DNA of 34,753 bases from Clostridiaceae bacterium. Lineage in GTDB: Bacteria; Bacillota; Clostridia; DSM-8532. The translations under genes and the position numbers were made by a program. The notes under the pieces were generated by a model, which saw only the letters and a program-made list of their open reading frames with translations, was not told where the DNA came from and made no database searches. Each line of letters opens with the position of its first letter. Within the stretch, counting starts at the first letter, position 1. Positions 17,333 to 19,352 of this stretch are shown one piece after another. The stretch is from NCBI GenBank assembly GCA_012521615.1, contig JAAYMA010000081.1:1-34753 (forward strand), read 5' to 3'.

Positions 17333-17378
17333 ATTACAATGATAAAATTATGGAACGAAGGATGTTGATAAAATCAAA

Positions 17379-19352
17379 TTGAGAATTTCCATTTTTAATT
17401 TTATTGAAATCAGCGGTTTTATATTTTCTATTATAGTATCTAATAAATTACTGGATAATCCCTTTTTTGGCGGCTCCTTGTTTATAGGATTCCAGCTGAT
17501 ATTGCTTTTTACTGATTTCTTCAGTGCAGGCACGGCTGTTTTTCTTCCTCAGAAGGAACGAAAACTCAGTAAAATATGTTTAATTGTCTCCATACTCGTG
17601 CTGCTTTTCAATCTGATTTTGTTTCCTTTTATAGTGGACATTAAGTCTGTTCTGCAACTTATTTTATTTGTCCTTCTTCAATTTCCCATGCATTATTTTA
17701 TCAGAAAAAAGACTTCCGCTACATATCTTATCTTCTCAGCATTACCTGGAATCCTCTTATTCTTCAGTCTTGAAAAAGAACTGAAATTGTTTGTCTTTCT
17801 TTACTGTATTTTTGCGTTTGTATTATCTTTTTTCTATAAAATCTTCGCCGAAAAGAAGGCTGACCCGGACCATATAAAGAATGATTTTACAGTGAACGAT
17901 ATACAAAATCTTATCGGCTTGAATTCATATAAGTATTATTGGAAAATGACAGCCAATACAAAAGCTGCTTTCGAAGTCTCAATCCTTTTGGCATTATGTT
18001 ACATGGCATACCTGCCATTTAAAGGTTTCTGGCAGCTATTGACCGACGCTGCGGTACTGCTGGGACTCTACCTGTTGGCAGCATCGATTTCAAAATTCAT
18101 TCTAAGTAAAATCGTTCTTCGCGAACTTGGCAAAAATACAGTTTTTGCAGTCTTTTCTGTTGTCTGGATTGCCACTAACTACAATATGTATGAAAATTAC
18201 GGGAAACTCAGCGGAATATACTTGTACATAACGTTTGTAATTCTGTGTATATGCATTACCGCCCTTGCATCAATCATTATCGCAATGGACAGTGATATGC
18301 AAATTATAGGATATCTCGGCATCGAGCATTTTTCAGTGAGAAAATTTGAACTTCTCAAAAGAATAATCAATCATTTGAGCATGTTTATTTCCCGATCGGT
18401 TATACTTCTTGTAATCAGCTTTTTGGCTTTTTTCACTGAATTAAGCTCCTTTAAAAGCCAGGGAACAGTCTATGTTTTGGGCCGCTACGGATTTACCCTG
18501 CTTCCGGCTCTCTTTCTCATCTTTGCTGTAATCGCCGCCATCAGACAGCCCCTTACACGTATTTATGAGGAAAAATTAAAAAAATATGTAGCTCTGAAAA
18601 AAGAGGGCAAAGTAAACAAGTCCCTTGAAAAAAGGCTGCGTCATGTACTTGTTGAGAAATACAGCAAAAAGCTGGGTATCAGAATTCTGATGTTTTTGGT
18701 CAAACCGTTTTTCTACCATAAAGTTATAGGGCGTAATAATGTAGATGTTAATAAGTTTCCGTCCGTATTTGTGTGCAACCATTCAAAGGTTTACGGCCCG
18801 ATTGCCGCAATTTTAAATATCCCTTTCTATGTCAAGCCATGGATTCTTCGCGAAATGGTAGATAACAACCGCATAGCCGCACATATTCAAAAAGGAACCT
18901 TCGACCGGCAAAAATGGATTCCTAAACCCATCCGTGACAAGTTGGGAAAATTATTCGGACCCATGGTCGCCTGGGCAATGCAGTCTACCGAACCCATTCC
19001 GGTCTTCAGAAACGATGGCAGGGAACTAATTAAAGGTATCAATATGAGCGTTGACGCTCTTGAAGCCCACGACAACATACTCCTGTTCCCCGAAAATCCT
19101 TATAAAACCAATGGCTATGTGACAGAAGGTGTAGGAGAATTCTACAGCGGTTTTGTAAACATAGCCAGAGATTATTACAAAAGAACAGGAAAGCGGCTCA
19201 CTTTTTACAGTGTGTTTGCCGACAAGAAAAAACGCACCCTGGCATTTTCAGAGGGCATAACTTTCGATCCTGAAAACAGTTTCAAGAAAGAAAAAGAGCG
19301 TATCACCAGATATCTGCACAGTGCAATGATCAGTCTTTATCTTGAACAGTAA
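17379..19352 (+). CDS. Polytopic membrane protein fused to a PlsC-like acyltransferase domain
   Basis: The protein is about 657 aa. Residues 1 to about 420 hold many hydrophobic segments in two blocks, separated by a charged stretch near 155-190. The C-terminal 200 residues resemble the 1-acylglycerol-3-phosphate acyltransferase (PlsC) fold: VCNHSKVYGP (His468), IPVFRNDGREL (motif II region) and LLFPENP (570-573 FPEN, motif III). The catalytic H-X4-D is H-X4-G (Gly473), so activity is uncertain. A role in membrane lipid or lipid-linked acyl transfer is inference. The start is weak: the TTG at 17379 has AAGGA 16 nt upstream and no ATG is nearby in frame. The stop overlaps the 3' end of hydF by 23 bp. 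Confidence 0.75.
   Translation: MRISIFNFIEISGFIFSIIVSNKLLDNPFFGGSLFIGFQLILLFTDFFSAGTAVFLPQKERKLSKICLIVSILVLLFNLILFPFIVDIKSVLQLILFVLLQFPMHYFIRKKTSATYLIFSALPGILLFFSLEKELKLFVFLYCIFAFVLSFFYKIFAEKKADPDHIKNDFTVNDIQNLIGLNSYKYYWKMTANTKAAFEVSILLALCYMAYLPFKGFWQLLTDAAVLLGLYLLAASISKFILSKIVLRELGKNTVFAVFSVVWIATNYNMYENYGKLSGIYLYITFVILCICITALASIIIAMDSDMQIIGYLGIEHFSVRKFELLKRIINHLSMFISRSVILLVISFLAFFTELSSFKSQGTVYVLGRYGFTLLPALFLIFAVIAAIRQPLTRIYEEKLKKYVALKKEGKVNKSLEKRLRHVLVEKYSKKLGIRILMFLVKPFFYHKVIGRNNVDVNKFPSVFVCNHSKVYGPIAAILNIPFYVKPWILREMVDNNRIAAHIQKGTFDRQKWIPKPIRDKLGKLFGPMVAWAMQSTEPIPVFRNDGRELIKGINMSVDALEAHDNILLFPENPYKTNGYVTEGVGEFYSGFVNIARDYYKRTGKRLTFYSVFADKKKRTLAFSEGITFDPENSFKKEKERITRYLHSAMISLYLEQ

Follow-up and report, generated by a model that had tools for sequence, protein, structure and literature searches.

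Gene Organization at the Locus

The window (the whole stretch of DNA that was analysed, 34,753 nucleotides) contains a gene whose product joins a membrane half to a C-terminal domain resembling PlsC. The features of this fused gene are collected in Table 1. The gene is present once in the host genome, which comprises 2.2 Mb in 133 contigs. Its start is doubtful: a Shine–Dalgarno (SD)-like GAAGG precedes the TTG by about 17 nt, and the profile match already opens 15 nt ahead of this codon. A ten-codon open frame on the same strand (17350-17383) also has the SD-like GAAGG, and its TGA overlaps the TTG of the fused gene (TTGA). This overlap could represent translational coupling or merely a mis-set start.

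Table 1. Positions of the fused gene and its parts in the window.
Feature	Position	Strand	Basis
Complete gene (657 aa; start at TTG doubtful)	17379..19352	+	ORF, copy number, upstream sequence
Membrane half, residues 2-389, twelve long helices, predicted diverged GPH/MFS_2 (MelB/MFSD2A-type) MFS fold	17382..18545	+	AlphaFold2, fold comparison, profiles, hhalign
Linker helices, residues 394-444	18558..18710	+	AlphaFold2 model
Predicted LPLAT (PlsC-like) domain, residues 445-657	18711..19349	+	Model, fold comparison, profile match
Motif I N467-H468-S-K-V-Y-G473-P474 (HX4G)	18777..18800	+	Alignments, DNA
Arg544 of motif II (IPVFR)	19008..19010	+	Alignment, DNA
Motif III F570-P571-E572-N573-P574; Glu572 is the proposed relay acid	19086..19100	+	Profile, alignment, DNA

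The genes to the left, named by eye, encode ribosomal proteins and elongation factors and lie on the opposite strand. To the right is a convergent hydF (TIGR03918, E 4.9e-160), the 3' end of which overlaps that of the fused gene tail to tail by 23 bases (window 19330-19352). In the L002 locus, the orthologue is flanked by a radical-SAM gene (hydG-like by eye) and a similar methyltransferase. In another Clostridia bin (L062:4204-4623), the fused gene lies just upstream of what by eye looks like the gene for ribosomal protein S12 (rpsL); the window also has rpsL within approximately 700 bases of the fused gene, but on the other strand.

Predicted Structure of the Membrane Half

The full protein was modelled with AlphaFold2 from 28 aligned sequences, and the mean pLDDT and pTM were 84.8 and 0.83, respectively. 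The model contained 12 long helices, linker helices and then an alpha/beta domain, which agreed with the polytopic membrane domain and PlsC-like domain described in an earlier note on this DNA. In the fold comparison of residues 1-407, the Z scores were 19.8 for MFSD2A (8d2t; 336 aligned, rmsd 3.6), 17.7 for SPNS2 (8jhr; 322 aligned, rmsd 4.6) and 16.2 for MelB (9old; 339 aligned, rmsd 5.7). Many MFS rows lay at Z 15-17; hence, the top rank of MFSD2A is only a hint, and a common fold with MFSD2A and MelB by itself demonstrates no function.

A profile of the membrane half built from 24 members was searched against the 391 genomes of the class and matched in 9 of them. This search with the membrane part alone, which the earlier note had suggested as a check, reached the fused genes and also three other open frames (506, 482 and 470 aa, with E values of 1.2e-14, 1.1e-9 and 7.2e-4), which Pfam identified as MFS_2 proteins (PF13347; E 1.7e-80, 2e-82 and 2.2e-71, respectively). 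A weak match (G067, E 1.4e-4) seemed unrelated by eye. The hhalign comparison between the membrane-half profile and the GPH/PF13347 proteins gave a probability of 97.7 and an E value of 2.3e-12 over 390 columns, and the match takes in the C-terminal PL...KL segment. A PDB sequence search with the same profile returned chance rows only. Judged from the profile match and the modelled fold, the membrane half is a diverged member of GPH/MFS_2 (MelB/MFSD2A type). The 12-helix fold and the profile match to PF13347 proteins are what it has in common with GPH/MFS_2, whereas the fused acyltransferase sets it apart, and the direct Pfam scan of the 28 fused proteins detected neither PF13347 nor any other MFS family.

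A further difference concerns the Na+ site. Two helix-II aspartates of the aligned GPH proteins, which we take to be the MelB pair Asp55/Asp59, align to positions 42 and 46 of the window protein, and these positions are acidic in only 2/24 and 6/24 members, respectively. The Na+-site aspartates were therefore not conserved in the 24 aligned membrane halves; in MelB, a Na+-site role is described for Asp55 and Asp59 in the part of PMC8329300 consulted. Moreover, four of the 28 fused members (L053, L071, L075 and L080) lack at least three of the first six helices, keeping the later helices and the acyltransferase domain, and L052 and L068 are without one or two of the first six. Some of these losses are perhaps assembly errors. 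With the Na+-site acids mostly absent and helices missing in 4/28 members, transport by the membrane half is doubtful; a lipid-binding or flipping domain is possible.

Acyltransferase Domain and Its Motifs

The C-terminal domain was also modelled alone (pLDDT 88.9, pTM 0.85). Comparison with PlsC (5kym) gave a Z score of 15.2 (180 aligned, rmsd 3.5), and the other LPLAT matches were plant GPAT (1k30, Z 13.6), human GPAT1 (12.8), PatA (5f2t, 10.2) and LpxM (8.5), whereas unrelated structures began at Z 6.5 and below. The modelled domain is of the LPLAT (PlsC) fold, not of the unrelated fold that the earlier note had allowed for. At the sequence level, a profile match to PlsC 5kym (E 0.0028) aligned Glu572 with the Glu of the PlsC FPEG motif. 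Pfam PF01553 matched the window protein at E 3.1e-4 with 21 bits, which is under the cut-off of 23, and was found at E<=0.01 in 22 of the 28 fused members. A PDB sequence search with the window protein alone yielded only chance rows.

The earlier note had read Gly473 in the place of the catalytic Asp and an FPEN motif III, and both were confirmed in the alignments and in the DNA, where His468 is encoded by CAT (18780-18782), Gly473 by GGC (18795-18797) and Glu572 by GAA (19092-19094). Motif III of the window protein continues as FPENPY. The domain resembles PlsC and other LPLAT proteins (PF01553; 5kym) in its fold, the motif I His, the IPV-R of motif II and the motif III Glu, but it differs from them in having HX4G for HX4D, in lacking the G-T-R that follows the motif III Glu in PlsC, and in its fused membrane half. 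The HPHG motif of DGAT2-like proteins was also considered.

An MFS half joined to an acyltransferase is also a feature of LplT-Aas and of the MFS-PlsC-AMP-ligase fusions (NF006386); by contrast, the window protein has a GPH-like membrane half, no acyl-ACP ligase and no motif I Asp. As stated in the part of PMC11416262 consulted, LplT and Aas act together in a complex, and certain bacteria have the two as a fusion. Membership in the LplT-Aas/NF006386 group was not adopted for the window protein, which had no NCBIfam match at E<=1; NF006386 was found in 2/28 members with a best E value of 8.9e-5. The literature search returned no account of HX4G acyltransferases and nothing on the fusion of a PlsC domain with an MFS protein.

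Conservation of HX4G Across the Clade

Relatives at E<=1e-3 were found in 5/32 genomes of the family (own genome included), 5/33 of the order, 26/391 of the class and 18/398 of the phylum. An alignment-based scan of genome contigs returned 45 loci from Clostridia, Bacteroidales and one Spirochaetales bin; its patterns fixed part of motif I (CNH then S, K or G) and left position 473 free. The single-protein scan of genome contigs returned no relative.

Position 473 was compared over 71 distinct clade loci, the window counted: 67 have G, 3 have A, one has S and none has an acid. By set, G was present in 28/28 fused proteins, 44/44 domains and 34/38 rows of the wide set (3 A, 1 S). His468 was present in 71/71 loci; it was invariant in the 44/44 and 38/38 rows, and no other column of the wide set was invariant. 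The block-3 acid (E572) was kept in 69/71 loci, namely as E in 28/28 fused proteins and 44/44 domains and as E (21) or D (15) in the wide set (n=38), where it was the sole acid conserved above 80%. In the same 38 rows, the motif II base was R in 26, K in 5 and H in 3, and Pro followed Gly473 in 35. The two exceptions at the block-3 site, L023 and L026, carry R and K and thus have neither acid left. They are standalone relatives from the same genus and may be dead copies.

The 71 loci leave out three ordinary HX4D proteins matched at approximately 20 bits (L030, L031, L048), fragments (L044, L046, L047, L050), membrane-part matches (L029, L049), three HX4G loci not placed in the wide alignment (L014, L017, L045), and two not placed in the 44-domain alignment (L089, which is incomplete and HX4G, and L054, which has a run of N). 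L001-L004, L006-L010, L032 and L033 duplicate the records of the window or of L051, L053, L054, L065 and L073 and were not recounted; L069 and L070, near copies from one MAG, are both counted.

Since this pattern is kept across 71 loci, HX4G is more than chance. The conservation of the Gly, which the earlier note had proposed to check, is a character of the clade and not a local loss. Homologues with a normal Asp, which it had named as evidence of a simple loss, were seen in 0/71 clade loci, and the three HX4D matches lie outside the clade. The clade-wide Gly points to a variant active site, not a single broken enzyme. The presence of Gly in a whole clade and not in one protein, together with the GPH/MFS_2-like membrane half, is new beyond the earlier note.

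Comparison With Ordinary PlsC

For the control, PF01553 was found in 21/21 related genomes, and all 30 loci returned were HX4D, including L141 with motif I NHNTDYD. The own genome also has an ordinary PlsC (L125; NHPSAWD, FPEGTRT); hence, the fused protein need not carry out lysophosphatidate (LPA) acylation. A quick tree was calculated for 85 domains (71 HX4G rows and 14 of the 30 HX4D rows). The HX4D and HX4G rows fell on opposite sides of one branch with support 100, with a long-branch warning for the HX4D rows. The MFS-fused rows formed one group (support 99) that included the incomplete row L079, and the GT2-linked clade joined this fused clade with support 81. Because the searches started from HX4G proteins, the HX4D rows served as the root and no further LPLAT groups were included, the tree supports a separate branch and not its origin.

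Proposed Function and Mechanism

The predicted folds of both halves, the conservation, the tree grouping and the separate ordinary PlsC were computed directly. The reading that we prefer, at a probability of roughly 0.45, is that the fused protein may be a membrane-lipid O-acyltransferase built on a GPH/MFS_2-type transporter-derived domain, with a His468-Glu572 relay and an acceptor other than lysophosphatidate; here we infer the activity, the residue pair, the acceptor and the transport step. His468 would serve as the general base, as in characterised LPLAT enzymes, for which the part of PMC4280512 consulted describes the motif I Asp as the relay of the His. The substitution of this residue in AGPAT1 (Asp109 to Asn or Glu) gives a dead enzyme (PMC4280512). 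In the window protein, the charge-relay partner of His468 would be the block-3 Glu572 instead of the lost Asp, in the manner of His126-Glu200 of PatA, the mycobacterial PIM acyltransferase. H126 and E200 of PatA are 2.8 A apart, E200A is dead and D131A retains 37% of activity, according to the part of PMC4792965 consulted. The His468-Glu572 pair is proposed because Glu572 aligns with the Glu of PlsC FPEG and is the only acid kept above 80% in the wide set. The likeness to PatA thus lies in a likely block-3 relay acid and in a motif I Asp that is not essential in PatA; however, PatA retains this Asp, and the two proteins have 10-14% identity and a Z score of about 10. Moreover, the C-terminal fold is nearer to PlsC than to PatA (Z 15.2 vs 10.2), and the block-3 Glu is retained alongside the Asp in PlsC and GPAT as well, so that conservation of the Glu alone is no proof of a relay. 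For LpxM, E127 is presumably the motif I HX4E Glu, and the PDB title of 5knk calls E127A a catalytic-residue substitution. Hence, in the literature covered, a block-3 relay is demonstrated for PatA only.

The acceptor would not be lysophosphatidate and might be, for example, a lysophospholipid or a glycolipid. In AGPAT1, the motif III Glu and Arg are essential, and the Arg after PEGT is also essential in GPAT1; both enzymes act on glycerol phosphates (PMC4280512, in the part consulted). Since this Arg is missing from the window protein, LPA is an unlikely acceptor. The membrane half would bind or flip the acceptor towards the active site in a layout like that of LplT-Aas. By analogy, a lysophospholipid acceptor would suit the MFSD2A-like half and has a precedent in LplT-Aas, and the GT2/GtrA links described below would suit a lipid-linked sugar.

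Gene Neighbourhoods and Alternative Readings

No common neighbourhood was found for the MFS-fused genes, which mostly lie among housekeeping genes; hence, there is no operon argument for the window gene. At Bacteroidales loci L068, L069 and L070, the fused gene is directly followed by small genes; L069 and L070 each have two of them, of which the second is nucleotidyltransferase-like by eye. Eight standalone HX4G genes from Ruminococcus-type bins (L082-L086, L091, L092, L095) lie just downstream of an argS-like gene (by eye) on the same strand, with a small gene in between in L086.

The links to glycan genes bear on a different acceptor. The protein might be a sugar or glycolipid O-acyltransferase acting on a polyprenyl-phosphate sugar or another envelope glycolipid, with the membrane half handling that lipid; on this view, the HX4G clade as a whole would decorate glycans, like PatA and LpxL/M. 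A DPM-like GT2 adjoined or was fused at 9/33 wide-search HX4G loci vs 0/30 ordinary PlsC loci (Fisher p 0.002), a count in which five of the nine neighbouring GT2s had gone into the GT2 profile, the loci are not independent, some ordinary PlsC loci have shorter flanks, and the 33 include the fragments L044, L046 and L047 plus L014, L017 and L045. An N-terminal GT2 (Glycos_transf_2) is present in L042 and L043 and a fused GtrA domain in L024 and L027, and a GtrA-like tail is present in two neighbouring GT2s, in one case under the Pfam cut-off. Downstream of two MFS-fused genes (L055, L073) lies a gene for a membrane protein that weakly matches Dpy19, and L073 is also followed by GtrA. PatA, in which the block-3 relay is proven, acylates a mannose (PMC4792965, in the part consulted). 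However, the GT2 profile was found at 0/31 MFS-fused loci, the window gene stands alone between the ribosomal genes and hydF, and the join between the GT2-linked and fused clades has support of only 81. This acceptor is considered fairly unlikely.

A loss of catalysis was also weighed. The LPLAT fold could bind an acyl lipid as a pseudoenzyme, acting as a lipid sensor, as the earlier note had offered beside altered chemistry, or as a lipid-gated scaffold for the MFS half. The absence of the Asp throughout the clade, the loss of GTR in motif III of the window protein and the two relatives without the block-3 acid agree with such a role. Nevertheless, a mere binding fold would not need a catalytic base, yet of all residues in the 38 diverse rows only His468 never varies, and most rows retain the block-3 acid and the motif II base. 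Furthermore, no recurrent sensor or signalling partner was found beside the fused genes, although L065 has a response regulator downstream. With the His invariant and the block-3 acid near-invariant, an enzyme is favoured over a lipid sensor; altered chemistry is the better part of the earlier proposal, and a non-catalytic role is judged unlikely. An ordinary but weakened acyltransferase, in which the His acts without a relay acid and the Gly is a tolerated loss, would be in line with E. coli GPAT D311G, which lowers Vmax and leaves Km unchanged (PMC4280512, in the part consulted), and with the activity left in PatA D131A. Such an enzyme appears very improbable, since the Gly-Pro pair is retained almost everywhere (G 67/71; P 35/38 in the wide set) and seems selected rather than tolerated.

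Implications for the HX4G Clade

The preferred reading of an O-acyltransferase with a His468-Glu572 relay can be extended to the clade as a whole. The HX4G clade, which spans Clostridia and Bacteroidales and is absent from the literature searched, may have dropped the Asp for good and let the block-3 acid alone carry the relay. Its members may have become joined by fusion on several occasions to membrane machinery for lipid handling or to glycan machinery (GPH/MFS_2, GtrA, GT2), and they may acylate a lipid of the envelope, or a sugar linked to a lipid, that is not yet characterised. This extension is on balance doubtful. HX4D counts as the hallmark of glycerolipid acyltransferases, and proteins that lack it are at risk of being labelled inactive or overlooked by Pfam. 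A clade that retains the His and the block-3 acid while the Asp is missing throughout would mean that the relay can shift entirely, and it offers a natural test of the PatA proposal. Furthermore, the HX4G clade suggests that Clostridia and Bacteroidales may modify a lipid in a way not yet studied.
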